Below are positions 11,001-58,600 of a stretch of DNA of 64,000 bases, piece by piece. The notes beneath the pieces were generated by a model. It ran no database searches and was not told the origin of the DNA. It worked only from the letters and a program-made list of their open reading frames with translations. The first letter of the stretch is position 1. Each line of letters opens with the position of its first letter. Source of the DNA: Apostichopus japonicus (taxonomy: Eukaryota; Echinodermata; Holothuroidea; Aspidochirotida; Stichopodidae); assembly GCF_037975245.1 (NCBI RefSeq), contig NC_092580.1, forward strand, positions 23,267,001 through 23,331,000. The letters are read 5' to 3'. The position numbers and the translations under genes were made by a program.

Positions 11001-14000
11001 TTATTAACATTGTCCTGTTCTCCTGAGCATTTGGATCAGTTTCGAGAGAAAGTTAGACTGGTCCAGGAAGGTGATGAAGATAGGTTACTCAGATTAAGAG
11101 TGACATTTCTGACTTTTGGTTTTGAACGTCTCATAGTTGCTGATAGATATGATATATGCCACAGTTTTTCCATCTGAGGAAATGGTTTTGGTTTTTCTAA
11201 CAAACTTTAAGTCAGTGGTAATGACTGTGGAAATCACTTGTAATCCTCAGAGTAGATGGTTCCCTAATATCCAAGACCCCTGATTTCACTTCACTAGCAA
11301 AACACCCAAGAGCAATTTTTGACACGAGGATAATCTGATTCTAAATATATTGAGAAATAAACATCAGCATAAAAAAAATAAGTGGACTTGCCCATGAGGT
11401 ACGAGGAATATTTCCAGTGCGCGATGAATCCCTGTAGTGGTCATACTAATTAAAGCTCTAGGTAACGTCTGCCTTCTTTGAATTTTATATTTCTGCTGAT
11501 GCATGGTTTCTGCCATTTCTACTTCATTCATTCATTCATTTATTTGTTCATTCATTTACTTATTTTCTATATTGTCTTGTAATTAGTGAGAAATTTGTGA
11601 AAGAAGGTGAAGATATGGTTGAATTAGAGGTCAAACACATCTTTTTTCCATCTTCCTCATCTGTTAGCTCTCTTTCGTCTCCGCAGCTAATTAAAGAGTT
11701 TCCAGTCGTCAGTATGTTCCAAATTCACGAGAACCTCATTGAAGCCCTCCTCGAGATGCAGTTGTACGCTGATGTACAGGCACTGCTCGCCAGATACGAC
11801 GACATCAGCTTGCCAAAGTCAGCGACAATTTGTTACACAGCAGCACTGCTTAAAGCCAGAGCCGTTTGTGACAAGTGAGTACAAACATGTTACTGTAGTC
11901 GAGATGTGCCAAAATTAAAAAGAGGAAGTGTTTTATATTTTATCTGCAAAAGGACATTAAGTGTGTCATGGAAATTGAAGCCAAGGCCAAAAAACAATAC
12001 TGGTGGTGTTCCATTATTGTATTCACAGTCGTTGTATGCTAATTGCCAAAAAAAATGGCATCTGAGTCTGGTAAAGATGGTTGTTTTTCAGTACAGGCAT
12101 GAGAATTCATTTACTTATTTTGTAATGCCTGCCCAGTTTTCTTGTAGTATCTTTATATAATGTAAGAATAATATGTGAATGTCTCTGTTACATAAAATCC
12201 TCATCCTACTACCAAAGTATTGGTTTGGATTGATTTCATTCCCATAAGCTCTCATGAAGTCCCTCCAAATCTTTATTTTTGTCAATTTGTCAGTCCAACT
12301 ATCCAGTTGCTGTTTCTCAATTGTAAACAAACCCTTTTCTCATCCTAGATTTTCTCCAGAGATAGCTTCTAAACGTGGTCTCACAACAGCTGAAATGAAT
12401 GCGGTGGAGGCGATACACAGAGCAGTAGAATTCAATCCCCATGTACCTAAAGTGAGTTGTAGTAAGATTATTATGATTGTGACACCTCTGTCACAAGGCT
12501 CATAAAAGCAATCGTGCTGGGGTTGACCGTGCAGGTCATACAATGTCGATAATAATGATGATAATGATCCAAGTGGACAATCAAGTATGGCAGTACTTGT
12601 ATAGAACAGTGATTGTCTTTAATAAGCATAAACGGATGTTTCGTTACGGATCTGTAAGATCATGATCGGTTGTTCATCGGTTGTTCATCGGTTGTTCTCC
12701 TGCCCGTAACATATATACTTTTACGTAGCAGTTACAAGCTTAACCCTCATGAACAATCAGTCTCTTCGAATTAGCTGTCTTTGATAAGTGACACTAGTCT
12801 ATAATACATCCCTTTAGCACTTCGTTAAGGCAGTTTGACCTTCAGTACATTTGTGCTGTAGGATGGGTGGGGGAGGCAGGGCATTGGCTGTTGGGGGCAT
12901 GACATGAGGGTGGAAGGGTACTGAGCAATCTTTTCAATCAATGCTGTTACTTTGCCTCATTTCTTTGACTTTCAAATCTTGTACTCTTTTCTCTTTGGTT
13001 TCCTAAGAGCCCTCTGGTGTTGCTTTACCAGTGGTTTTGGTAGACAAGATAAAAATGGAAATTGGATCCTAATCCAGATTTCGCTCTGGAAAGTTCATCC
13101 CTTTGATATGATTAAAGAAAGAAGTTGGGCATTGTATATGAAATGACAAGATTTCACAAAACACGGTAGAATTGGACACCATCATTTTGCCATCCTGTAA
13201 TTCCTCCAGACTAAAACTTTAATTTTTGTTCTTTGTTGAGATGGAGCTTCATACAATGGGGGCACTTTACCGTTCACAAAAACCAAAACATCTCTCCTTC
13301 CAATCCATAAAAGCCATATTTGCCATCGACTAAAGATTATTTCAGCTCCGTAGTAATACATACTCTGTATCTCTTTTTTCATCCTTTCCTGAGCTTCATT
13401 CAGTAGGGGGCACTTTACTGTCCACAAAAACCAAACATCTCTCTTTCCAATCCATAAAAGCTGTATCAATTTGCCATCGACTAAACATTATTTCAGCTCA
13501 GTAGTAATTCATACTCTGTATCTCTTTGTTCATCCTTCCCTCCTCTCACAGTATTTATTGGAAATGAAAGGCCTCATCTTGCCGCCAGAGCACATCCTTA
13601 AACGAGGAGACAGCGAGGCCATTGCCTACAGTTTCTTCCACCTTCCACATTGGAAGAGAGTAGAGGGAGCGCTTCAGCTTCTCCATTGTACGTGGGAGGG
13701 CACGTTCAGAATGATCCCGTACCCCTTGGAGAAAGGTCACCTATTTTATCCGTATCCAAGTTGTACTGAAAGTGTAGATAGGGAACTACTGCCAAGTAAG
13801 TCCTACTTTGTCTGTTTATTTGTTTGTTGTCATTGTTGTTGTTTTTTTTTATTATAGAAAGTCTTATATAATGATAAATTTATTGTAAGAGAAAGAGAGC
13901 CAAAGAAAAACATGTTTGGAAAATGTTTGAAAGCATTCAGGGGGAACTATTTGCCCTGATATTTATTTTCTCATTTTTTTTTTTTGACTTTCAAGAACAA

Positions 14001-16610
14001 GTGGTTATAGTTTGGTTTAATAAATACAGACTAACTTGTGCTCAACATATCAATTTGAAACTCTATTCATGCACTGACAGGATACTGATGTTTTCCATTG
14101 CACAATCGTTTAGTTGAATCAGGCTCGTGTTGCCTGTCAACCATCAAATTAATGACATGGTCTGTTTATTTTTCCTTATTATGTTTAAGGATGGTGGGGG
14201 AGGAATGGGTATTTTTTATTTTTTTATTTTTCATTTGTCAATACCTTGGGATTTATCAGAAACAGTGAAAAGGGTTAACATCTAGTAGGTTGTGGGTTTG
14301 AAGCATGATTGACCGTCAGAGCAAAATATTGTTTTTTGCTTCAATGAAACAATTCATGATTAAGTCCAACTCTGTTCATTAGTGTTAATAGTTGTATACT
14401 GAATCCCTACAAGCGTTTGCCGTATGAATATTTGGCTGAGCTATATCGACATGGAACAGTCTTCCTCTGCCAGGTCCGTGTCGTTGTCATTCCTTGTCGG
14501 AGAATACTCCTACTTTTATTTACTCATCTTTAGCTATTTTTTAACTTTGCAGGCTTCCATGAAGTTTCAGTCTACCCTAAGAAGGAGCTTCCTTTCTTCA
14601 TCTTATTTACGGCTGGGTTATGTACCTTCACAGCTAGTCTGGCGCTATTGACCCACCAGTTTCCAGAACCAATGGGTGCTGTTGCTAAAGTGGTATGTAG
14701 TTATAACGGTGCCAATTACTCTTGTAGAGCCGTTTTTGAGATATTTATGCGTTACTGTTTATTTCAAACTGTTGGTATACTGATTTCTATTCTTAGTACA
14801 TGATTTATTGGTTCTTATTTAATGTTTTTCTTTGTGTTGGGTTTGTTTCCTGTGATTCGATTAGAAAGCATCGTCTGGGGGGTGGGGGGCTAAAGTTGAT
14901 GGCTGAACGAAACTGCTGATCTGAAAACTACATCCTCATAGCAATTTGTATTGCGAAGGTATGAAGTTTAAAAATATAGTGATATTTTGTTTAGTGTTTG
15001 CACGGGTTATCCGGGTACCCGCCCGACGTGATACTACCCGGTTCCTTATTTATTACCCGAATCCTAAGCAAAGTGTGATTTAAAAAAAAAAAAAAAAATG
15101 GCAAACCGACGGTTAAGCAGATTTCCCATTGACTTAGTGTGGTGTTAGGCTACAATGTGGTCGAAGATAACAGCAATAACGAAGGAGCCCGTTCGACGCG
15201 ATACTGCCCGGTTCCTAATTTATTACCCGAATCATACGCAAAGTGTGATTGTTTAAAAAAAAAATATTTCAAACCGATGGTTAGGCTGATTTCCCATTGA
15301 CTTAGTTTGTTGTTAGGCTACCATGTGTTCGAAGATAACAGCAATAACGAAAGCTTTCCATAGATATCTTATAACTGCGTCACAATTTCAGCTAATAAAC
15401 AGATGACTAGGCTAGACTACCCCCATTGGTGGGGGTTAGGGTTAGGGTTAGGACCAAATAAACAGATGGTTAGGCTTAGCTAGATTTCTCATTGACTTAG
15501 TGTGGTGTTAGGCTACCATGTGGAAGAAATGATTATTTATTCATTCGTTTATTTCAAAGAAGGAAAGGCTGACAAGGAATTTTACGCGATGTTTATGGAT
15601 TATAGACGGGATAACTAAAAAATAGTAATCGCAAGTGGCTTTTCACTAATCGTTTATTCCAAATGCGATCAAATTGCGCGAATCGCGCAATCTCGCGGCT
15701 AATGCGAACCCTGGGCCTGCATAATAGATAGTAGTAGTAGTATCAAAAACTGTTTAAGAGCTAAATTGGATATTTATATGGTTTGATCCAATAGACGTGC
15801 ACGAGCTAGCATAAGCAGCGGCGGCAGTGCGATGTTAGTAGTAATGCTAATTATAATTAAATAATTAATTTATTAACAAGTTAATGAAAGAAACAGAAGC
15901 AAATTATTGAGGGAGGTTTAATACCTTATCTTACACCTACGTATTTGAACATGAAAACATTGTCAGTAGAGAATATAATGCATTTATTACAGCATCCAAT
16001 ATGTAATTTCTTGAAAATCGTGATACACGAGGGTAAACAAAAAAATTCCGGGTACCCGGATACCCGACGGGTAACGGCCCTCGGGTACCCGGTTCCCGAT
16101 TTTTGGACCCGTGTAAACACTAATTTTGTTTTACTGTCATCTTTTTTTATATTGATTGATTGATCTTTTGAAAGGTTGATTTTGCAAGAATCTTTCATGT
16201 TTTTTTTTTTCAAAATTGTACTTATATGACGACAATCACATTAGACAAGAACAGACGATAGAGAAACAAAGACCATTTGGTGTGCTAGTCAGCACATGAC
16301 ATGTTGTCTCATTGCAAAGTCCTGTCTTTCTTAAATAAGGATAAATAGAAATCTTAATTCATTCTTGCCTCACACCATATTATTCAGAAAAGTTCCTACT
16401 GCTTTCTTAGTGTATGCTTTGTTATGTACATGAGTAGTGTAAAAGGTAACATTACTGTAAACAAACTCCATTGGTACATAATATGATCTCTCCTCTCTCT
16501 CTCTCTCCCTACAGTTTTTGGCTTCTCTTTCTGCACCGTTTAGCTTTCTGATGGAGAAGTTAGAGAGCGTGATACCCAGCAGTCTGTGGCATCAGCTAAC
16601 CAGACTCTAG
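4983..16610 (+). CDS. ST7: ST7 (suppression of tumorigenicity 7) family membrane protein, 5'-partial, 11 exons
   Basis: Eleven exons (4983-5062, 5939-6071, 7491-7661, 8695-8773, 9477-9631, 10703-10800, 11687-11874, 12349-12451, 13552-13795, 14553-14692, 16515-16610) join in one frame with GT-AG junctions and give 494 residues from the first ATG (4985). Against ST7 as I remember it, similarity runs the whole length: [19 protein letters not shown] at the start, [19 protein letters not shown] in the middle and [15 protein letters not shown] at the end, the last matching the vertebrate isoform that ends LWHQLTRI. A hydrophobic segment lies at residues ~10-28 and another at ~429-451. Vertebrate ST7 has an upstream exon encoding an extra membrane segment. 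The two bases before the ATG (CC) would complete a serine codon from it, so that exon should lie left of the window. ST7 is a conserved multi-pass membrane protein whose molecular role is poorly defined. Confidence 0.96.
5939..6071 (+). CDS. ST7: ST7 exon
   Basis: The exon follows CACGATAG and ends before GTGAGG. It encodes [20 protein letters not shown], a highly conserved ST7 block, then a Ser/Asn-rich linker ([13 protein letters not shown]) as in vertebrate ST7. It ends in phase 1. Confidence 0.95.
6327..6699. repeat. Tandem direct duplication, ~190 bp x 2
   Basis: Copies at 6327-6518 and 6519-6699 both begin GTCTTAAATCTGTTT and share TATTATTATGTTAT, TTTGAAACAAAGACCT-like and TAGTCACCTAGCTTT segments. 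They are diverged by substitutions and small indels. Lies in the ST7 intron between the exons ending 6071 and starting 7491. Confidence 0.85.
7491..7661 (+). CDS. ST7: ST7 exon
   Basis: The acceptor TTTTTAACAG ends at 7490 and the donor GTAAGT starts at 7662. The exon encodes [20 protein letters not shown], then [20 protein letters not shown], both ST7 signature blocks. It ends in phase 1. Confidence 0.96.
8492..8518. repeat. (GAAA)n microsatellite
   Basis: Six or so GAAA units in the ST7 intron upstream of the exon at 8695. Confidence 0.9.
8695..8773 (+). CDS. ST7: ST7 exon
   Basis: The acceptor TTCCTTTTAG ends at 8694 and the donor GTGAGT starts at 8774. The exon encodes [20 protein letters not shown], matching the ST7 block that contains [10 protein letters not shown]. 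It ends in phase 2. Confidence 0.94.
8897..9260. repeat. Degenerate GGGACCATTTGGGCC array
   Basis: Repeated words GGGACCA(T/C)(T/C)TGGGC, TTTTGGGAC, GGGCCCAA and CATTTTTGGG recur about every 30-45 bp across ~360 bp of ST7 intron. It looks like a decayed minisatellite. The open frames across it on both strands are a by-product of the periodicity. Confidence 0.7.
9477..9631 (+). CDS. ST7: ST7 exon
   Basis: A long T-tract precedes GGGGTCAG (ends 9476) and the donor GTAAGT starts at 9632. The exon encodes [20 protein letters not shown] and [15 protein letters not shown], aligned to the CATAYILLAEEE...EAEKLF region of ST7. It ends in phase 1. Confidence 0.94.
10703..10800 (+). CDS. ST7: ST7 exon
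   Basis: The acceptor TTTCTACAG ends at 10702. The exon encodes [20 protein letters not shown] then [12 protein letters not shown], ending in phase 0. Its donor GTAAGT (10801) runs directly into an AGT-repeat microsatellite. Confidence 0.95.
10803..10821. repeat. (AGT)n microsatellite overlapping an ST7 splice donor
   Basis: The donor GTAAGT at 10801 continues straight into five AGT units, so intron position +3 onwards is a trinucleotide repeat. Confidence 0.85.
11687..11874 (+). CDS. ST7: ST7 exon
   Basis: The acceptor CGTCTCCGCAG ends at 11686 and the donor GTGAGT starts at 11875. The exon encodes [20 protein letters not shown] and [20 protein letters not shown], among the most conserved parts of the family. 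It ends in phase 2. Confidence 0.97.
12349..12451 (+). CDS. ST7: ST7 exon
   Basis: The acceptor CATCCTAG ends at 12348 and the donor GTGAGT starts at 12452. The exon encodes [20 protein letters not shown] then HVPK, ending in phase 0, nearly identical to vertebrate ST7. Confidence 0.97.
12662..12697. repeat. Short tandem repeat, CGGTTGTTCAT x 3
   Basis: Three near-identical 11-bp units in the ST7 intron after the exon ending 12451. Confidence 0.85.
13244..13540. repeat. Tandem direct duplication, 147-bp period, abutting an ST7 acceptor
   Basis: Copies at ~13244-13390 and ~13391-13540 share GAGCTTCAT, GGGGGCACTTTAC, ACATCTCTC, TTCCAATCCATAAAAGC and CATACTCTGTATCTCTTT. The second copy's end supplies the polypyrimidine tract of the exon starting 13552. 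Confidence 0.88.
13552..13795 (+). CDS. ST7: ST7 exon
   Basis: The acceptor CCTCTCACAG ends at 13551 and the donor GTAAGT starts at 13796. The exon encodes [20 protein letters not shown] and [20 protein letters not shown], diagnostic for ST7. It ends in phase 1. A 147-bp tandem duplication ends right at its polypyrimidine tract. Confidence 0.97.
14553..14692 (+). CDS. ST7: ST7 exon with C-terminal membrane segment
   Basis: The acceptor ACTTTGCAG ends at 14552 and the donor GTATGT starts at 14693. The exon encodes [19 protein letters not shown], then a hydrophobic stretch ending [11 protein letters not shown], a likely membrane helix conserved in ST7. It ends in phase 0. Confidence 0.96.
14992..16122. 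mobile_element. hAT-type MITE, copy 1 (1131 bp)
   Basis: Starts TAGTGTTTGCACGGGT and ends ACCCGTGTAAACACTA (inverted repeat, 15/16 matched), with a perfect 8-bp target duplication ATTTTGTT (14984-14991 and 16123-16130). Subterminal runs of CGGGTACCCG-type palindromes occur at both ends. Inside are repeated blocks containing CCCATTGACTTAGTGTGGTG and TTAGGCTACCATGTGG, and a telomere-like (TTAGGG)3. There is no coding capacity. It sits in the last ST7 intron. Copy 2 is at 48098-49121. Confidence 0.93.
15433..15452 (+). repeat. Interstitial (TTAGGG)3 telomere-like repeat
   Basis: Three tandem GGGTTA units inside MITE copy 1. The corresponding part of copy 2 lacks them, so they arose or were inserted in this copy. 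Confidence 0.85.
16515..16610 (+). CDS. ST7: ST7 terminal exon
   Basis: A CT-rich tract and CCTACAG (ends 16514) precede the exon. It encodes [20 protein letters not shown] then LTRL and a TAG stop at 16608-16610. This corresponds to the vertebrate ST7 isoform C-terminus of the [12 protein letters not shown] type. Confidence 0.95.
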   Translation, partial: FLASLSAPFSFLMEKLESVIPSSLWHQLTRL

Positions 16611-27137: not shown

Positions 27138-30100
27138 CTGCGACAGAAAAAATTATAAAAAATAATAATATGAAAACAGATAAAGAATAAAGTTTCTTTA
27201 AGAGTGTTGTAGGTAACACGAATGACTTTAAGCACTTAATAATATTCCCTTTCAAATCACTTTTTTTTCTTCTATAAAGTATCCCGTACAAAAATCTGTT
27301 ACATTCAAGAAGCACTTTAGTATCATTGTACTTATATATCACTTTATTAATTTAAGGTCTGCAAACACAGTCACCTGTAGTATGTGTTCCCTTTCCACGA
27401 GAACCGTGATATACACTTGACTTGACATGGTCATAACCATAGTGTTACCAGTGAGTTGTTAGGGAAGACAACTCCCTGGTGTTACAGTCTCGATGTAAGG
27501 GCACTGGGGTTGTGATTGGATTAAGTTGTTTTGTTTTCGTGGCCAGGTTCTATCTTGGGTGACTTTAATTGTAATTTCTACAATATCTTCTTATTCATTT
27601 TTCCGTCCTAAGGTAATCTTTAATAACTGTCGTCATGACAACAGTCCAGATATGTTGGACTGAAGATCAATTCGACGAATGGTTGACGGAATGATTTGGT
27701 ACAAGCCCCCCCCCCCCCTCCACCAGCGCTCCCCTTCCCTCCTACCCATAAAATGTTTCACTCCTTGTGACTTTACTTAAACAAAAGGTCTGATGTACAA
27801 ATTTATCTACGTATGAGCCATCTTAGGGGGTCTATCAAACTTTGCCCGTGTGTAAGCGGGGCTCCTTTATTGCCCCGATTATCATAAATTCGGAATGAAT
27901 GATGATGCTTGGTGTGTGGTTCACCGAAGCTGCATAAATACACTAATTCCAGCCTATTTGTTGCGTCATTGTCTACGGGTGATATACTGTAAATTGTGCG
28001 ATGTTTAATCAATATGACGATGCATATAAAAATAATGTATGCGAGTCAACGCTATATATAACAGTTTTCTGGGCTTTCTTAAAACGAAGGATTTATCACC
28101 TTTTGAAGTGTGTTGATGAATTCTAAATGAGACGAGACGACGTTCTTTTGAAAACAGGCAGGCTGGTATTATGACCAATAAATCATGGCAGACATTACTC
28201 AGTCTGACAGTTTCTGGTGAGGGCTTCTAACAATTTACACAAATGAACTTTGGCCACTGTAAAGACCGAAAGTGTTCTCTGTGTACAGGTACATCAGTCA
28301 AAATATACAGAGAAATCTGTATTTTTAACAGTTTATATTCTTAATCATCTATCTTACATCTATCTCTTTGTGTTCACCATGCTCATTTACCAATCTGTAT
28401 TCTGTGTGTGTTTTTGTCCCTTCTGTTACTGTTACTTGTCATTCAGCCTCTGAAGAAGATCCTGCTAGGATCGAAACGTCAGGCCAACTTACTTTTACAC
28501 AGTTTATATTTTTCACAGAGGAATGAGCTTTTTCAAGCAGGGATCTCCAACGCAAGCATCTAGGGGAAACGTCACCATCTGGGAGGGACGGCGTCATCGA
28601 GGGGATTTTCATTGTCTAAGAGGAACGTCATCATGTAGTGGGAACGTCACCATCTGGGAGGGGACGCCATTATGGGACGGCATCATCAAAGGGGGGGGGG
28701 GATGTTATCGTCCAAGAGCGGGTTTTATTGTCTAGGAGGGAAGTCACCATGTAGGTGGAACGTCACCATCTTGGAAGGGACGTCATTATCTAATCGGAAC
28801 GGCATTGTCAAGGGAGGGGGGGGGGGGAGGCGTCATCATCTGAGATGAGCCGTCGTTATCTAAGAGGAACTTCATCATGTAGTGGGGGCGGCATCACCTA
28901 GGAGGTGACATCATCGTCTAGGTAGAACACCATGGTCTGAGAGGGGGACGTCAATATCTATGGGGCATTCCATCCTCTATGGGGAATATCGTCATCTGGG
29001 AGGGGAAGGGTACGGCATCACCTTCTGGGAACATAAACACTTAGATGGGACGCCATCATGTGGGAGATGACGTCATTGTCCAAGAGAAAACGTCATTATC
29101 TGTGCGAATCACCATCAATGGAGATTTGAACTTACATCACATTTTCTGAACGATGTGTAAAGTACAAAGATAGCTGACGATTTAGTTACACCAAAACTCC
29201 TTTCACTTCCCTAACTGTTCCTCTCCCCCTCCTCCAACCCCCCCCCCCATCCCTCTCCTCACACCCCTCCCTTCCCCTCCCTTTACACCTGTGTTAGTAC
29301 ATTGGCTGCAAGTCTAACTTGACGTACCTGTTTCTGGATTCATGGAGCAGTAATCGGGTGATCTCTCAAAATAAACCAGGTTGGACTTAGACGGTTTCCT
29401 TCGCCTTCTCTTAGATGAAACGAGTAATCCATTTCCATCTCTGTTCATTGTGACTTCTGTGGCTGCATCGTACATAGTTCTGAGATATTGTCCAACCTGA
29501 GGAAGAAAAACAACAACAATGAATGTCATTGTATGACACTACATGTCTTCGCACAGCAAAGAAGGAAATACCAATGTAGTCATGTCTCGACACCCCCACA
29601 AACGAAAGTATTCCCCTCGAAATATTGTGCTTGAGAAAACAATTATCATAAACTAAAAAGAAAAGAGAAATTATCATTGAACAGAAGTAACTAGAAGACG
29701 ATAAATTCATATCAGGTCTGCGACGATACGGCGTCTGGAATAAGACGTTCAATTTGTAAATGACTTTGTATTATTTTCCTTTGAACTCAAGAAATCAGAC
29801 TCTAACGTCGCCAAAGTATTAAGATTCCGTATCACACCAAAACGGTATACCAAAAGAAAAGGAAAACAATAACAAAATAAAACATTGACACATGTGAATC
29901 ATTAATTAACGGAATGGGTGAAGTTTGTACTTGTCGTCGAATATATAAAACACAGTCCAGATGAATATTTAGTTTTGTCGTCAAATTTGAAATCGATTTG
30001 AAGTTAACATGTTTGTACCACGAGTAAAATTGAAGCACACAGGTGTCATGTAATTGATGAATACTGACAAACTTGTTTTTATATATCTTTTGCAAATCTT

Positions 30101-36100: not shown

Positions 36101-39100
36101 ATAAATTTTTAATAATAATAAATGAGAATAAAGATTAGCAGTACCTATAACAGGACCAAAGTTTGTAAATCAACATTAACAAAACAAAAACCGGCAAAAA
36201 ACTTGAAATTTGAAAAATGATTAATCGCGACAGACAGGGTTCGCAGGTTTCTTCCGGGGGTGGAAAAAACCGCGGAATAAACCGCGGTTTTTTCCACTCG
36301 GAAGAAATAGGTTTCTTCCAGTTTCTTCCGGACAAAATGGAAGAAACTCATTTTTTGGGGAAAAACTGTTGATAAAGTTTCATAACAATCTGCAATGATT
36401 TCTAACTATGTAATAAATGGACAAGAAGCACTATAGTGTCATCTAGGTAGTCTATATCTAGGTTTGGAGCACATGACCTGCCTCCAGCATATACTGTACA
36501 CAATATAGTACTAGGCTACTGCAGCATCGGACAATTAAGGGAACAACTATGGGCAAGCAATATTTTGCAGACCAGAATGGTCCTGATTATAGCCCAGTTC
36601 TTAGTTAAAAACTAGTTTCTGAGTGGAGGCACAAGTGTTCCCTGGAAAATAGTGTAGGCCTTCTACAATGTGTACTCATTAGTACGATTACATTGACCAC
36701 TATGACCATATTTTGTGGAGATTGAACTCAAGACATGAGGGTTACAGATTCGACTGGAAGTTGTAGTGTGAAATGAGGGCTGGCTCATGGCCAGCTGTGT
36801 TTAATTGTGGATGTTTGTTGCTTTGCTGTTGGGATGACAAGTCCTCCTATTAACTACAAGTTGTAATTTATTAATTAATGAGTTGCAGAAATTAAACTGT
36901 TGCCTAAATCTAATAGATATTGTTCGGCTATTTGCTTGGTGTTCATTGTATTAAATCCTCAGTGCATGGGCCAATCCAGGTTAATCATTCATAAAGTATG
37001 GCCAGTTATGCAATTCTGGTTGATGGGGGGATCGCGAGATGATAAGTAGTCCTTCAATATTGTGACTTATAAGGAAACATCTTTTGGTGTAGAAAAAAAC
37101 CCAAAATTTTAATCAAAACAAAAATATCATATTTTGATGGTTTCAATGGTATGCATTCAGTCAGATGGTGGTAAGCTATTTGTCTCTTTCTCATGTATGT
37201 GGGCTGTGCTGCCTATATGCCAATTTTCACAGTTTCTTCCAGTTTCTTCCGGTTTCTTCCAGTTTCTTCCGGAAGAAACTGGAAGAAACCTGGAAGAAAC
37301 AGGTTTCTTCCAGTTTCTTCCACGTCCCCGGAAGAAATAGGTTTCTTCCGGAAGAAACCGAACCCTGGCGACAGAACGAGACTTAATATTAAGTTACTAA
37401 ACTTTCATTGCTCTATCAGAAAATCCGGAATGTTAATTTTATTATTCTTATTAAAAAAAGGGGGACGGGGGGGGGGGGCGGGAATCCCAGATAAAATGTC
37501 AAACTACGAAAGCTTTTTGTCAAATAAACCGTTTGAAATATGCAGAAATGCTGTCGTCACGGGACTCATGTCATTGAGAATTGAGAAATAAATCATTACA
37601 TCAGCTGTTTATAAACTGTATTCCACATACCCCCTTTTACATGAATATTTTATGCAGTGATATATTTTAAAATCCAAAAGACTGGATTTGTGTAGCGTTA
37701 TTGAATAAAGAGTGGTTCCTTATTGGCAACTCATTGTATGACATTGTGTGACACCCCCACACCACCCCCCCCCCTCTAGCGACGTCCCTGTAGTGTGGTA
37801 AGCTATACATGTTAACATTCATGAACTTGTGCACACCAAATTATGAGGATTATCTATTGACTAATGCGGCAACATGTTACAGAAGGTACCAGGAATCAGT
37901 AATCATGATGACAAAGTCTGTTTAGTGACATCGTATCAAAACAGGCATGTATGAATATTAATGAGGTCAAGTTTTATGATCTCATAAGCATGTATACTGT
38001 GTCTATATACTTACATTGTACTATATAAGGTACATGGTACAATTATGGCATCGGCAAAACTTACTTTTAATGACTGATTTTCCGAAGACAGAAGAGTCCC
38101 CTTGTAAAGTGCTACAATTCCAACGGTTATTGCGAAAGCGGTTCTGGCATTCCTTGACGCCTTCTGTAGCGCCCTCGCCAATACTTCTCATGATGTCTGG
38201 GTTTTTCTGGCAGAGTTGTCTCTGTTTCCCGACGAGTCGAGGGACATTATCACACATGATTCGCGTATCCACAGCACTCAACTGACTTATTGACCTGCAA
38301 AATAAAAAGAGAAAGAAATCCACCTATAATTCCACACATAACTAAATACTTATATGAGAAGTTATATGCGATTTGTATTCTCGATTACCCCCCCCCCCCC
38401 CCTGCCCCATTTTGTTCCTGACATTTTTGAGATATTGTTAATTAATCATTCGGTACACTTTTAGATAAAGTCATGTTTTGGGGTAACTTTAGTTTTTGTT
38501 TCCTTGGCCAATCAGATGAATGTACTTTCATGACGTCATAAACACGTTCGTATCGACTGGTGGCCATTCTCTTATATTGTATACCGATATAGGTTTTAAA
38601 TAATCGGCATTAAATATTATATTTGATTGGTACCTTTTACATCATATATATATATACCTTTCCTATGCAGTACTTCTAGCGCCTGCAGTTGGAACAATTT
38701 TTTTAATAAACTGTACTTTCATGTAATGCTTCAAAGCACTTTCGCTGGCATTATGAGCTGTTTTATGGATATCCTGTGTATCATATCTGAGGTGACTTTG
38801 GAACTGTTTCATATTGTCAGTAGTACTATTGCTTAAGAGCGCGACCGTGTAAAGAGTACCGTAGAGTTTGGTAGTAGCAGTAGAAAACTGTCCCAACTGG
38901 CGGCACCCTAACTAATGTTTCATCTTTTACCAAATATTTACGGAGCAATTTATCATATTGGCATGTTAAACATGATTGCACCTGTCCAGATATATAGTTC
39001 TATGATCCCATCAACACGCGCAAGTATTCACCGGGCCTCCTATCGGAATGTACTGCACCTGAAAATGGTTCCCTGCTTACACACCTGAGCGCATATAAAT

Positions 39101-48097: not shown

Positions 48098-49121
48098 TAG
48101 TGTTTGCACTGGTTATCCGGGTACCCGGGTACCCGCCCGACGTGATACTACCCGGTTCCTAATTTATTACCCGAATCCTACGCAAAGTGTGAAAAAAAAT
48201 TTAAAAAAATTGGCAAACCGACGGTTAGGCAGATTTCCCATTGACTTAGTGTATTGTTAGGCTACCATGTGGTCGAAGATAACAGCAATAACGAAAGTTT
48301 TTCCATGGATATGTTATAACTGCGTCACAATTTCAGCTAAAAAACAGATGGCTAGACTAGATTACCCCATTGACTTAGTGTGGTGTTAGGCAACCATGTG
48401 GTCGAACGTAACAGCAATAACGAAAGTATTCCATGGATGTCTTATAACTGCGTCACAACTTCAGTAAATAAACAGATGGTTAGGCTAAGCTAGATTTCTC
48501 ATTGACTTAGTGTGGTGTTAGGCCACCATGTGGAAGAAATAATTATTTACTCATTCGTTTATTTCATAGAAGGAAAGCTGACAAGGAATTTTATGACATT
48601 TTTATGGATTATAGACGGGATAACTAAAAAATAGAAATCGCAAGTGGCTTTTTACTAATCGTTTAAATCCCAAATGCGATCACTTTGCGCGAATCGCGCA
48701 ATATCGCGGCAAATGCGAACCCTGAGCCTGCATAATAGATAGTAGTAGTAGTAACAACTAAATTGGATATTTATATGGTTTGATCCAATAGACGTGCACG
48801 AGCAAGCATAGGCAGCGGCGGCAGTGCGATGTTAGTATTAATGCTAATTATAATTAAAATAATTTATTACAAGTTAATGAAAGAAACAAAAGCAAATAAA
48901 TATTATTGAGGAGGGTTTTATACCTTATCTTACACCTACGTATTTGAACATGAAAACATTGTCAGTAGAGAATATAATGCATTTATTACAGCATCCAATA
49001 CGTAATTTCTTGAAAATCGTTATACACGAGGGTAAACAATTTTTTTCCGGGTACCCGGATACCCGACGGGTAACGGCCCTCGGGTACCCGGTTCCCGATT
49101 TTTGGACCCGTGTAAACACTA
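48098..49121. mobile_element. hAT-type MITE, copy 2 (1024 bp)
   Basis: Same family as 14992-16122 and in the same orientation: starts TAGTGTTTGCACTGGT, ends ACCCGTGTAAACACTA, with a perfect 8-bp target duplication CTAAATTA (48090-48097 and 49122-49129). The two copies match closely by eye. The ~107-bp length difference lies mainly in the internal repeat blocks near the (TTAGGG)3 of copy 1. Confidence 0.95.
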
Positions 49122-49129
49122 CTAAATTA

Positions 49130-50465
49130 AAGGAGAAACTTCAAGAAGAGAGACGGGTTAAATGTTTATCCAAATGAAACGAACTGTCTCGGGACGTCAC
49201 TTATTATGAAAAACGTTTTCAGTAATATTGATTTATTCTGCGGGAGGTGTTAAATCAACTTCACTAACACACCATACAAATAGATAACTATACAGATAAA
49301 CAGAAAATTATAAATGACATGTTCATCGTGACAATAGACCGTCAAGGAATTGATAATTAATTTAAAAACAATGTTCAGCATAGTGAAGTAAGGCTTTTAA
49401 TGACAAATTTATATCATATCCCACAAGTCGACGGTTGCTTATATTTTGGACTATACCATTCGATCATAGGGTTGGCGTCGAGTTTAGCAATGGTAATATA
49501 TCGGTATAGGTTAGGGATTAATGATAAAATAATTAGTATTAATTCACTAAATTAATGGACTGTGGATGTCAAGTGTCGTTCTCAAAAATATTCTGAGAAC
49601 GACAAAACAACGACTGTTTTAGATTCTACACAAATACATAACATCTCTACTCAATAGTGGAATATACTGACCGGCGACATAAGCTACATTGGTGATGGAA
49701 TTCAAGAACCCTTAATCGCTCCATGATCACTGCGTTGCCGATTAAAGGAGTGTCACAATACCTGGCTAGCCAGTGTGCGACTATCGCCTTACTTCACCCC
49801 AAAATGGGGGAATATCCTGACATCAAATATACACGTATAGCTCAATCCGCCAGCGAGGTTTGGTTCCTCCCAGTTCAGAGGGATATGGTTATCATAACCA
49901 CTGTACTAACCAGCGGAATATGCGAATGAAAATATATTGGTATAACCACTGTACTAACCAGCGGAATATGCGAATGAAAATATATTGGTATAACCGATTT
50001 ATAACCGACAATACTTCACTCTATGACCCCCTACCCCTACTGTTTCTTTACCTCCCTTCCAATAGATAGATATTCAGCTGCTCTCATGTCGAAAACAATG
50101 AACTGTCTTCTTTCCGAAGGAACAAAAACGCAAGAAAAAGTCCGTATACAATAAAGATGGCGCTATGCAGATATGTATATGGTATACCAAGTTGAGTTCA
50201 TGTATTGTCATATCCATTAACGTTGCACTATTTTTGAATAGGTCAAGAGAATCTGTCTCCAGGTTGTTACAAATGCTTAGTACCACAACCTAATGAAACT
50301 GTTCAAATACAAAGAGATGTGACACAAGAAATACTTCGTTGAACCAGTTTTATTATGAAATAAATAGAGTTTTGATTAAGGCCTAGTTCAATCTCTGTTT
50401 TCGTTTTAATTGACCAAAAATGTCACACAGACAAACTTTCATGGAAAACAAGCTCAGTTTATTGC
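49130..50465. other. Intergenic, no gene seen
   Basis: AT-rich spacer between the MITE copy and the G/C-ended transposon. The only structure noticed is the 48-bp duplication. Confidence 0.5.
49894..49995. repeat. Exact 48-bp tandem duplication
   Basis: Two identical 48-bp units (ATAACCACTGTACTAACCAG onward) followed by six bases of a third. Having no mismatch marks it as recent or an assembly artefact. Confidence 0.9.
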
Positions 50466-52499: not shown

Positions 52500-52697
52500 T
52501 CATGAATCTGTAATGTGATCTTGAGTTTGATTATTTAAAGTATTCTTAAGATCTGATAACTTTCTTGGTATCCTAGGAAACGGGGAATAATCTTTAAAAC
52601 ATCTGCTCCACACTTGGTCCACATGTTTGCTTGCAACTTCCTTGGTCAAGCCTCTAGAACACATCATCGATTCTGTCGCGTGTTTCCTAACACAATC
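52500..52697 (-). CDS. ATP23: ATP23 terminal exon
   Basis: The acceptor CTCATTCTTAG ends at 52698. It encodes DCVRKHATESMMCSRGLTKE, VASKHVDQVWSRCFKDYSPF and PRIPRKL, then a non-conserved tail and a TGA at 52502-52500. The G/C-ended transposon at 50466-52268 starts only ~230 bp downstream and may supply part of the 3' UTR. Confidence 0.94.
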   Translation of the reverse strand, partial: DCVRKHATESMMCSRGLTKEVASKHVDQVWSRCFKDYSPFPRIPRKLSDLKNTLNNQTQDHITDS

Positions 52698-55600
52698 CTA
52701 AGAATGAGAACAGATAACAGAATTCAAAGTAAAAACAAAAAACAGAAATATCATTTGTGAAAAATTAGTGTCATTTCTGTGTTTGTAAAGGAAGGCAAGT
52801 GAAGAAGAAGTGTCATTGTGATGAAGGAATAAACCCCAGTGATGATGGTAGTCTTTGCCAGCTGCTTGTTATTTATGATAAACGGCAGTGCTACCATCTT
52901 AGGGGAATGGGTGGGGGTGGGGGGTGATAGCATGAGGACAGAGGACCAGAGACAGAAAGAAAGAGAGGGAGAATTTAAAAAAAAATTAATGACAGATTTG
53001 TTACAATTGAACGTTTGGATTCTGATCTGAGGGTGATACTGTAGGGGACACGAGACAATTGATTACACAGTTGTTAATATAAAATCAGATTTTCAGATTT
53101 TCAGGAAGAAAATGGTGTTATTTTTGTACGATGGGTTCCTAGAATGTGAAGTTTGTCTTGCATCTGAAAGATATTTAATCTCGGTGACTTTTGAACAAGA
53201 GTTAAATAAGAGATCAGGGGGAAATATGGAGAACTTTTTGGGGTTTGGTTTTAATTCATTTTGGAAATGAAAAAATTAGCTATACATTCACAGTTCCCAA
53301 ATTTGTAGGGGGGTCTCAGTCTGCTGTTGATTTTGTCTACCAGTGTCTCCTACAGTCCAAGCTCAACTCCGTTTGGGACGACTGTAGTCACCCATTTCAT
53401 ATTCAACTCCATGATAGATTAATAGATAGGGGCATTGGTAGACTAAGACTTCCTCAACTTAAGACTAACCGGCACCGCAATTCATTTATCCCTCGTGTAA
53501 TAAAACTTACAACAGCAATTTGAGTCGTAAGGTGGTTGCCTAGTCCTTGGATGGGTAGGCTCTCTGTCTTTTAATATTTAACTTGATCTTACCTTCTTTA
53601 GTTATTAATTGTCATATGAATATAGTTTTATATTTATATTTGTATTTCTTATAATGTGCGAGTATCGAAATATCCGATGTATGGAGCAATAAAGTTTCAC
53701 TTACTTACTGACTCTGATAGAACCAAGATTACATTCTGTGGCATTCCAAATGATATTTCTCTCCCCCATCCACCTCCCCCTCCCCTAACCAACCTTCCCA
53801 AACTACAGGAGAGAATTTGTAGATGTCATTTGAAGCGTTAAAAGCAAAACTAACAAAAAAGAGAGAAAAGACCAAAGTCAGGAAACAATTAATCATTATA
53901 GCATAAAGAAATGCTACAAAACTTGAAGAAGTTTGCTAAAAAATTCCAAAAACTGTATGTAGAGGATATCTTGAAACAGCCTTGATATTTTCAGTAAATT
54001 TGTAACATAAAAGATTCATACACCTGATAACTACTACACAAAACCAAGGTAGACACTAAACGTTTCCTTGCAGCAAACTCTATTCCATTCATCGATACAT
54101 TTAACACTATGAACAGCACTTTTATAGTAAAACAGTGAAAAAATTGCACATTTTGAGATTTACACATTGACACATTATACATATTGTAGGCTTTCTGATT
54201 CTTTCAAAATACAAGATAATTTAATTAAATAAATGTAAGACAATGTGTGAGAAAAAACTTCAAGGTGCTCCATCACTTAGATTTCCACCAAAGGAAAACC
54301 ACTTCTTCATGAGAAAACTGTATCAAATTTACTCACAGAGGTTTCTATGTAACAGGGAAATTCAAACAGGTGTCTGGAAGATAAAATTGGCACAGCTCAT
54401 CACTAAGGGTTTACCTTACCATTGTGCTTTCTGCATCCCTTCAGACTCATACCCCTCCGCCCTCCTCCCATAAAAATAGTACTTTGCTTGAGTTTCTTAC
54501 CTGGTGGTGTCCACGGATACCAAAGCCTTTCCCGTAGAGGTTTTCTGATAGAAAAGAACATTCACCACTGAGACTTGATGCCCTTATCTGAGAAAGAATC
54601 ATTGTTTCATTTGTAATTTATCAATTGATGAAGATTCCTAAAGTCTTGTCAACCTAGTGGCTGCCTACATCCATGTCAAACGATGTCACAACAAGGCAGG
54701 AGCGATGTGTTTTTACAAAGCCACGATAAGTTAGTAGCTGCCTAAATGCAATGTTTAGGAGGTCTGAGTATGAAATCAGTCATATAGAGCTTTGTTGCCT
54801 TCCCCCTTCTCTTTGGGAGTGGGGGGGAGAGGGGGGATAATGGGGGTCTTATAACAGGTCATATCAGGAAGTGTTTAACTCAGAGCAAGATATAGCATTA
54901 AAATTTGAGGAGGAAATGTACTGATAGGTAAGTAGGTGATAACATTAAGTGGCAGGTTGTAGGATAATGAGTACCAGAGCAGATGATATGGGTACTATTA
55001 AAGGATTAATTAAAGAAAAGTGGATATGAGTGCAGCTTAATTCAGAGCAGGGGATATAGCTATAGATTACCTAAGGGATAAGTGGTATGATTAAACTTTG
55101 AGTAGAAACTATGATTATTAAGAGTAGTGAACGTGATTAAGATCAGAACAGTGGATATGATTAAAGCTTAACCTCAAAGTAGGTGATACTTTTTAAGAAA
55201 AGTCACCCTAGATACAGCCTGGGCAAGAAAACCAGAGCAACTTTATCCCCCTCTCAACCCCAGTCCCATTACATCAAGACTGTAAGCGTATGCTCAAAGT
55301 ATTGTGATGCGATTCAGTTTTACCTCACGGCAGACCAAGGAATTAAAACTTAAGCAGGATACGTGAATGTACGATTAACCTCGCACTAGAAGACCAAAGT
55401 TTGAGAAAGTATTTGCAAGAGGGTATGACCTAAAAAACAAATAACCTCAGGACAGGTGACATGACTAATATTCGAGCATTAGCTACGATTTAAGATTTAC
55501 CTCAGAGCACTCCATGGGATTATAGCTTGCATACGAGGTTTGGTTATCATTTTACATCAAAGAGTAGGAGATATTGTAAAGGTTTAACCTCCAACTAGGT

Positions 55601-58600
55601 GAAATAAATCTCTCTTTACCTAAGAGCAGGCTATAGGGCAACAATATGAGCAGGTGATATGATCAAGATTTACCTCCGAGCAAGCGATATGATTAAGGTT
55701 ATGCCAGTTGATGTCCACCCGACAGTGGTCGTATGCATGGATGAGTTCGTGGGTGAGGAGACGACTGACCACCCTTAACGAAGTTGCTTTGTTTTCACAA
55801 ATGACGATCTGATGAAGAGGAAAAAAAAACTCAATCAAAGTTCAGTATGCAAGTTAAGAAACAATATTTTTCAAGGATATGCTAGAAAGAGAATAAAACA
55901 AACTGGTAAATATCGACCAAGCATACATTATCTTGGTAACATAGAAGTAGCCTGCTCTCAACAAGGGGATGTCCTAATTTATAATTCACATTTTTTGTTA
56001 AACTTTCCCTTACCACACAATATGGATAGGCACTACTTATAATGAAAAATAATGAAAATAATGGCTGATATGTTTGCAACTACTACAAATATATATCTTG
56101 TCCTCCCTCAATCCCAACACCATGTGACACTCAGTTGCTATTAAGAAATGGTGTGTTATCTGATGCCCTTTTATATCATAAATAGTTCTAGGGAGTTCTT
56201 TATCCACTCAAATATGTAAATAAACAATGAAAAGAACATACATCTGATTACAAGTTTCAAGTTGCAGCTTGTGTTTTCAGCTAATGTATATCTGCCATGC
56301 AAAGACCAAAGCACTAAAATATATATATATTTGTTATTGTTTTCTTGTATTAGTGTCTCAACAGCTATTTTCTTCAGCTTGATGATGTCATTACACTTTG
56401 ACAGATAATATTAACTCACAGCAGATGAGATGTATCTAAGCCTAGCCTCATTTGCCTAAGACACAGTTGACAAACAGTTTACAAAAGAGGTTGTTTTTGA
56501 TGGCAAGCCATATCTATTATCTACTAACCTACTATTGTCTGCAAATTTCTCTGAATCAAGCAAACACACAAAAAAAAACCACCAATAAGTGAAAGTGTCA
56601 ATTTACTACAATATGACTGTCTGAAGGTTAGCTTTACCTGTTTAGCATCAGGGTCGAACCCTCCGCTCATTGTACTGTTGTCATCGCATGGCTCACAAAG
56701 TATTTGATTCTCCAAATCTACCTCACTGTAAATAGAAGTAATGAGAAGTATCTTATCATAGATAGAAAGACTCTCTACAAGTATGTAAAGATCGTTGTCA
56801 GCATAAGCTGGCAGATAACTCAGTAAATTTATTACCAAAAAACACAACAAACTGGAGAAAAAGTGTCATCAGCACCAGAAGTCACTCACTTGAAATAGTC
56901 AGCATACAATTAAAGACTTTTGTTGAATTGTATTAATTGTATAACTGAAGTCAACATGAATATATGATTATTGTCCCCCAAAAACATTATGGATAATGGA
57001 TCTCAAACTTGAAGAAGGTAACTGTAATATTTTTCATTTGCTTTAAACAGGAAGAGAAATAGAAACCAAGAGTTACTCAAAAGTCTTCACTTGCTTTCTT
57101 TATAACTCAATTTGTTAACCAATTTTAAAACAAAAACTATGAGTTTACAACAGAGAACCAAACATAAAAGTAAAGCATGTAAAAAATTGAACTGGTGTAA
57201 ATGTACATGTGAGGGTCATCTATTAACTACATATAGTATCAAAAAAATATAAGGAAAAGTGAGAACACCTACACGAAATATATAGGAAATCGAGAAGCCA
57301 GGGGGAAGGGCTTTGAAAGTTTTGTACAAGACACAATGAAAAATAATATTAAAATACTGTATCAATAAAGCAGAACCGTGACAACAGGAAGTAAAGTTAC
57401 CAGCCAGAAGACTTCATTGCATCCAGCATGAACTTGACGTATGCATCTGAAAAATAGAATAGACCCACTTGATGTTCCAAACGATAATACACAAAAAGCA
57501 AACAAAAAGGCAAAAAATGTCACATTCAATAGTAGCAACGCTAAAATATTCGATTGTATTTAGCCATGCTCCTTGCAGGTTTTAAAAGGGATTATATGGA
57601 AAGTATGGAAGTGGAAGTGTCAGTATACAGTATAGAGTATACAGTATATATATATGAAAAACAGAATTTTGAAAGTAAAAAAAATAATTGGCCAAAGCAT
57701 GCTTTGCTTTCCTTAGAGAAAACAAAAGAAGCAAATATGATAATTACAATAATAGACTGCGACTAAGAAGAAACATGGCTTTGGGTATCGCTACTAGATT
57801 CATTTATAGGGCCAAGAATGGTGTGATTTTCTGAACCAGATGATCATCCACGATCTGGATAAAAAAGAGGTACGAGCACAATCGAGGTCTGTTTGCAGTT
57901 GGTGAAGTGATCTGCCATGATGCTGTGCATACCTGTAGTACACAAACACAAGGTTCCAGATCATTCCTCTAAAAAGTGTCCCGTCAGAGTTTAGCATAAA
58001 CCTCCTATCCTGTCGGGTGATTTTCCTACCATTACAGCAAAAAAAAACACCCCCAATATTGTTAGTTCTGGTGTTCTTTGGAGGTTAGAATTGTTCTTGG
58101 CCCCCTGTAGTTCAGACACTAGACTCTTTGGTGTAACCATCCAGCAACTTTACCCTGTGGTCATGATTAATCTAAAAAAACTGGAAGGTGACAAGGCCTA
58201 ATTTACTACCTAGACCTACTCACCTAGGCTAGGGCCGGTATTACCATTTCATATCAGGTTTGCCATAAGGCCTATGTAGCCTAAGCACTACTAGTACTAG
58301 TAATGTTACAAAAATTATCAATCATAGAAGCATAGCTGCATTGACCTAGATCACACTGGTTTCAATATGGGCCCTAGTATTAAGTGAATGCGAAATTATA
58401 GACCTGTAAATGTAATATAGAGAACAAGGAATAAAGTAGGTATCATTTGTGTAGGCTAGGCCTGTCATTACTATAGAAGACCATGTTACTTGTTAGGCCT
58501 AGGCTAGTCTACGTGACGTTTAACGTTACTGTACGTACTGTGTTTGCAAACTTTCTGAACACGGCTCACACAAGTAGTATGTCGATAGTTCTTCCGTATG

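Follow-up and report, generated by a model that had tools for sequence, protein, structure and literature searches.

Where the sequence of an intron comes from, and whether its source can be read after heavy decay, are questions raised by a predicted gene on the minus strand of a 64,000-nucleotide (nt) stretch of the Apostichopus japonicus genome (RefSeq assembly GCF_037975245.1, contig NC_092580.1, positions 23,267,001 to 23,331,000). The whole stretch, referred to as the window, was analysed, with coordinates counted from its first letter. The gene encodes a Peptidase M76 family protease, which we take to be ATP23. About three quarters of its intron 4 (~807 of 1086 bases) consists of a degenerate array of 30-base-pair (bp) units that resemble the end of exon 4 together with its splice donor. 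A first-pass annotation had described this intron as filled with decaying copies of the exon 4 end and donor; the copies are real, but they do not take up the whole intron. We consider it likely that a donor-spanning segment was duplicated in tandem, so that the intron expanded, and that the copies then decayed neutrally while the exon copy was held by selection.

The gene model is a prediction built from the reading frame and the GT/AG boundaries, with the exon numbering of the first-pass annotation (slashes in sequences mark splice junctions):

56638 to 56725, minus strand: exon 3, EVDLENQ...DPDAKQ, start set by eye at AG/TGAGG, part of the M76 match
55674 to 55808, minus strand: exon 4, 135 nt, IVICEN...HELIHAYDHCR...NLNHIACSE, from GT/AG and frame
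54588 to 55673, minus strand: intron 4, 1086 nt, GT...AG
54501 to 54587, minus strand: exon 5, 87 nt, IRASSLSGEC...RGHHQ, part of the M76 match

Exons 3-5, conceptually joined, match the Pfam family PF09768 (Peptidase_M76) with 117.8 bits (E 5.8e-34), and the HELIH zinc motif lies within the matched domain, which identifies this as a Peptidase M76 gene. The junction between exon 4 and intron 4 reads GAG/GTAAAT, with the last exon base at 55674 and the first intron base at 55673. The elements around it are the following:

55668 to 55697, minus strand: putative source unit, the 24 nt at the end of exon 4 (LNHIACSE) and the 6 nt that open the intron (GTAAAT)
55644 to 55667, minus strand: first intron unit, 24 nt, six bases short, with the donor GT among those missing
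54861 to 55667, minus strand: degenerate tandem array, ~26 units of 30 bp, some shorter, consensus CTTAATCATATCACCTGCTCTGAGGTAAAT

The array was parsed with a cyclic 30-state profile that was started from the exon-derived unit (the 24 exonic and six intronic nucleotides listed above) and fitted to positions 55667-54861. The fit yields 26 complete units, arranged head-to-tail in a constant register, with a period of 30 and some shorter units; in five of the 26, only 13-15 letters match, and these five are possibly not genuine units. As tandem copies of one unit in the size range of roughly 10-100 bp, they form a minisatellite. With the exon left out, the fit scores 145, compared with the maximum of 31 in 200 dinucleotide shuffles given the same exon seed and the maximum of 46 in 138 other segments of the window, the best of which overlaps a degenerate array near 28.5-29.1 kb. 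For 200 shuffles that were each seeded with 30-mers of their own, the maximum is 46. Because the profile begins from the exon unit, the fit was repeated from 37 intron 30-mers: 22 converged to a consensus that agrees with the exon unit better than that of any among 200 shuffled controls (null maximum 19/30), and the remaining 15 did not.

A chance origin of the likeness between the array and the exon is excluded. In wrap-around alignment, the exon-derived unit scores 64, compared with the maximum of 19 in 300 shuffles and 14 for the best of 225 other segments; under stricter scoring, the respective values are 38, 29 and 22. The last 27 nt of exon 4, used alone as a query, find 10 non-overlapping intron matches with a score of at least 50, compared with the mean of 0.42 and the maximum of three in 60 shuffles. 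Among nine control 36-mers stepped along exon 4, the one that overlaps the copied end has 10 matches, those at 55808 and 55724 have three and one, respectively, and the other six have none. When 5266 30-mers, sampled at 24-base intervals on either strand of the window, were each compared with the following 800 nt, the top three scores (63, 61 and 59) all fell in or at the edge of the intron 4 array, and the best score outside it was 42, in a low-complexity stretch. Tandem Repeats Finder at a score of 40 reports no row across 54861-55667.

Within the window, the repeat is confined to this exon-intron pair. In a common test, exon 3 with intron 3 and exon 5 with intron 5 score 7 and 9, compared with 59 for exon 4 with intron 4, and none of the 126138 30-mers on both strands of the window outside the array agrees with the consensus at more than 19 of 30 positions. 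Neither the rest of intron 4 outside the array (P 0.85) nor the part of exon 4 that precedes the copied end (P 0.74) contains detectable units. The homology starts ~24 nt before the exon end, and the next 30 nt upstream agree at only nine of 30 positions. An older minisatellite or mobile repeat could have spread into the exon and created the match secondarily, and the window does contain another degenerate array, at 28560-29110, in which no exon homology was noticed. This origin is, nevertheless, extremely improbable, given that the window has no further copy of the 30-bp unit and that the copied part of the exon is a conserved M76 segment, which should predate the array.

If the exon and the intron share this segment, which of them was the source? 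The first-pass annotation had named, as a result that would speak against its observation, a lack of significant similarity between the intron units and the exon end. The consensus derived from the intron alone is identical to the exon 4 end and donor at 27 of 30 positions and, translated in the frame of the exon, reads LNHITCSEVN, compared with LNHIACSEVN for the exon copy. Masking NLNHIACSE reduces the M76 score from 117.8 to 92.4 bits, a cost of 25.4 bits, so that the exon 4 end belongs to the conserved M76 core. Masking the zinc motif leaves 82.5 bits (a cost of 35.3), masking IRASSLSGE leaves 90.7 bits, which is comparable to the effect of the NLNHIACSE mask, and three other 9-residue masks leave 98.4, 106.1 and 113.1 bits (these four other masks each cost between 4.7 and 27.1 bits). 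The exon 4 end is probably the source of the intron copies because it encodes part of this conserved core and because no full-length intron unit lies as near to the consensus. The best such unit matches it at 23 of 30 positions, compared with 27 for the exon unit, and the probability that one preset unit of average decay (mean 0.673) would reach 27 of 30 is 0.004.

In the history that we favour, a 30-bp segment across the end of exon 4 (24 nt, or eight codons) and the start of intron 4 (six nt, including the donor) would have been duplicated repeatedly in tandem, through replication slippage, unequal exchange or both, giving rise to a minisatellite of ~26 units. The duplication would not have displaced the first, genuine donor or the acceptor, and this first donor is presumably the one in use. 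The consensus unit is free of stops in the frame of the exon and its length is a multiple of three, so that early copies could have been tolerable whichever donor was used. Homogenisation of the array would then have ceased and the units would have drifted, with selection on the protease keeping the exon copy near the founder. The complete units show a mean identity of 67.3% to the consensus (Jukes-Cantor distance 0.43) and of 51.5% to each other, and by this divergence, the array is old. A rough estimate from usual neutral rates, with an alignment fitted to the consensus, places its age on the order of 100 million years. Most likely, the array today does nothing beyond lengthening intron 4.

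Several observations weigh against this history. We infer the exon-to-intron direction from protein constraint, and the exon is not alone in lying close to the consensus: the short first intron unit agrees with the consensus at 22 of 24 aligned bases and is, per base, as near to it as the exon. Along the array, similarity to the unit shows no trend with increasing distance to exon 4 (Spearman -0.19, P 0.36), so that growth outward from the exon is not visible. Furthermore, eight of the 10 deletions of at least three nt on the fitted path remove a base of the donor GT (P 0.00018 for random placement), which is not expected under neutrality with independent deletions.

The bias of the deletions comes with an excess of short units without the donor, seven in all, with lengths of 20-26 nt that mostly lie near 24. 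Selection could have produced this pattern if donor copies were mildly harmful and deletions removing them were favoured; the array would then preserve, like a fossil, the traces of selection on splice fidelity, with decoys stripped by small deletions while the remainder only drifted. The concentration of deletions on the GT recurs under four other gap settings (5/6, 3/5, 8/10 and 10/12), and the unit nearest to the true donor is itself one of the short, donor-less ones. The short units, however, are slightly more alike among themselves than the longer ones are (0.616 versus 0.528, label-shuffle P 0.028, 22 of the 26 units), as they would if one deletion had been copied, and the retention of GT is otherwise ordinary. 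A single copied deletion is the sparing explanation, by what is a weak test, and shared descent of the short units may account for the excess. We regard stripping by selection as unlikely, both as the cause of the short units and as the overall meaning of the array; if it is true, the cost of a decoy donor would become measurable inside a single intron.

Could the copied donors act in splicing? Donors were scored with a human weight matrix; on this scale, the true donor scores 7.48. The consensus 9-mer, GAG/GTAAAT, is identical to that of the true donor, so that the donor of the neighbouring exon is part of the unit, and the copy at 55493-55509 (minus strand) does match 16 of 17 bases, as originally reported. 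The best-placed or best-scoring decoys are these:

55614 to 55622, minus strand: nearest well-scoring decoy, TAG/GTAAAG, donor at 55619, offset 54, score 5.64, preceded by the in-frame stop TAG
55495 to 55503, minus strand: strongest decoy, GAG/GTAAAT, first intron base 55500, offset 173, score 7.48, out of frame and behind a stop
55318 to 55326, minus strand: decoy GAG/GTAAAA, donor at 55323, offset 350, score 5.90
55065 to 55073, minus strand: decoy TAG/GTAATC, donor at 55070, offset 603, score 5.31

The first-pass annotation had proposed scoring the donor of each unit and spoke of a field of decoy donors. Only one of the 51 GT sites in the intron equals the true donor (expected 0.57 from shuffles and 0.90 from the density in the window), and five array sites, 55500 included, come within 2 bits of it (expected 1.80 and 2.58, respectively). 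At least five such sites are reached by 4.7% of 300 shuffles, which makes the excess marginal, and two of the five, 55206 and 55328, lie outside the donor register of the unit. Thus, the array contributes no more than a mild excess of strong donors, and the notion of a field of decoys is weak. The donor GT is kept in 10 of the 26 complete units; among the 29 adjacent base pairs, it ranks below 18 and level with five others (listed 19th). Because this retention is no better than that of other pairs, nothing suggests that decoys were preserved for regulating splicing.

The first-pass annotation left the choice between neutral slippage and a splicing regulator. As a regulator, the array would offer donors that compete with the true one, yielding a premature-stop isoform (a decoy or poison extension) that lowers the output of ATP23. 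One decoy is, indeed, letter-identical to the true donor over nine nt and others are within 2.2 bits. Read-through past the true donor adds VNLDHITCSYCCPIACS followed by a stop at offset 51, just as had been stated; all 18 of the best-scoring decoys lie behind this in-frame stop, so that any of them, if used, brings in a stop at codon 18 of the extension. In a similar array of human ABCA7, one unit is retained (apparently 2 +/- 1%) and longer alleles show lower expression (PMC5954066). Unit retention in ABCA7, however, stayed constant across array lengths, and it was exon 19 skipping that increased (PMC5954066). In intron 4, strong donors do not clearly exceed the background, the donor GT is not preserved and the first unit lacks it altogether. 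Slippage is the better of the two options, and a regulatory role appears quite unlikely.

A further possibility is that intron 4 itself was born from tandem copies of a coding AG/GT segment, as in the Rogers model, with the array as its body. The consensus unit, open in the frame of the exon, 30 nt long and containing AGGT, would suit this origin, and an alignment of the unit with the initial 48 nt of exon 5 has P 0.043. There is also precedent in fission yeasts, where a 24-bp exonic AGGT-containing tandem duplication with introns across the copies is described (PMC4974935). An intron made from the repeat would, however, carry the unit at its acceptor, and none is clear there (P 0.27; 12 of 30 positions when aligned on the AG). 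The start of exon 5 agrees with the donor side at only three of 12 positions, the alignment with P 0.043, one of four tests, puts the AG off the junction, 273 nt without detectable units separate the array from exon 5, and the last six nt of the unit are donor-like rather than exon 5-like. Intron gain under the Rogers model, in which both ends lie in copies of one unit, was accordingly rejected as a candidate (acceptor P 0.27), and birth of the intron from the repeat is highly improbable, in contrast to growth of a pre-existing intron by duplication of its donor-spanning edge.

Minisatellites of this kind are already known: human ABCA7 and, reportedly, IFI6 carry them, and the ATP23 array is probably an old, neutral, exon-derived relative of these donor-spanning arrays, distinguished by its age and by the 24 coding bases taken in. 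For the minisatellite of human IFI6 (6-16), Turri, Cuin and Porter (1995) reportedly described several splice donors; it is said to consist of 12-bp units at the exon end, with decoys used. In ATP23, the good decoys lie behind a stop. Zhuo and colleagues (2007) are said to have described human introns derived from tandem arrays. The variable-number tandem repeat in intron 18 of human ABCA7 has a 25-bp unit, with 23.7 copies in the reference, and its first bases are the exon 18 donor; splicing at a copied donor leaves one unit in the transcript, and the resulting frameshift leads to a premature stop (PMC5954066). Both this repeat and that of ATP23 directly flank an exon and include its splice donor, but the ABCA7 repeat begins at the donor GT whereas the ATP23 unit also takes in 24 coding nt, and the ABCA7 units vary slightly in a highly polymorphic array whereas the ATP23 units are ~52% alike in the one sequence read.

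Internal tandem repeats at exon-intron boundaries that alter intron structure are also reported for human duplicated genes (PMC2812944); these are recent, variable and found in primate-specific paralogues, in contrast to the old, decayed array in a gene of a conserved family. Tandem-duplication intron gain copies an AGGT segment that lies within an exon or spans the boundary of an intron (PMC4974935, PMC2891723); an AGGT-containing segment was copied in tandem in ATP23 as well, but there the new intron is made by the duplication, whereas the ATP23 evidence favours growth of a pre-existing one. In seabream myostatin-2 intron 1, the repeats lie at the 5' end of the intron, as in ATP23, but they are 150-bp blocks present in one or two copies and are not described as taking in exon sequence (PMC3045353), compared with ~26 units of 30 bp. 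In the open-licence literature, no paper was found on ATP23 and an intron tandem repeat, and the name XRCC6BP1 occurs in none among the matches listed.

Despite the heavy decay, the source of most of the intron 4 sequence is still readable as the edge of its own exon, because the founder would have been kept by selection on the protein. If such arrays are common, duplication of exon edges is a way for introns to grow that can escape standard repeat finders, as it did Tandem Repeats Finder here. The exon copy also provides a reference for comparing the decay of donor and non-donor bases within one intron.

Two further exon-like pieces presumably belong to the gene, as they fit the ends of ATP23:

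57403 to 57438, minus strand: exon-like piece, VKFMLDAMKSSG
52566 to 52691, minus strand: exon-like piece, VRKHATES...FPRIP

The M76 protein has no match among solved structures. Searches for its relatives returned six pattern matches in viral contigs and 78 in bacterial and archaeal genome contigs, none of either confirmed, both results being uninformative on animal orthologues. The window holds no Rfam families at gathering score and no tRNAs.

Other features of the window were noted by eye. The second strongly degenerate tandem array, at 28560-29110, has a unit of ~20 bp around GGAACGTCATCATCTAAGAGG and also scores in the scan of 30-mers and in the profile fit; no exon likeness was noticed. 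Positions 15888-16160 and 48881-49174, read on the plus strand, are near-identical, with 26 protein letters common to their translations, and look like a dispersed repeat. Exon-like frames of a Wnt-like, possibly Wnt2-like, gene occupy 38323-38024, 32890-32522, 29538-29317 and 27351-26776 on the minus strand, between ST7-like exons at 11462-13854 (plus strand) and ATP23; ST7 and WNT2 are neighbours in human as well. At 37230-37322, short repeats of GTTTCTTCC stand beside its reverse complement, and similar letters seem to recur, in the translations, near 36.1-36.4 kb.

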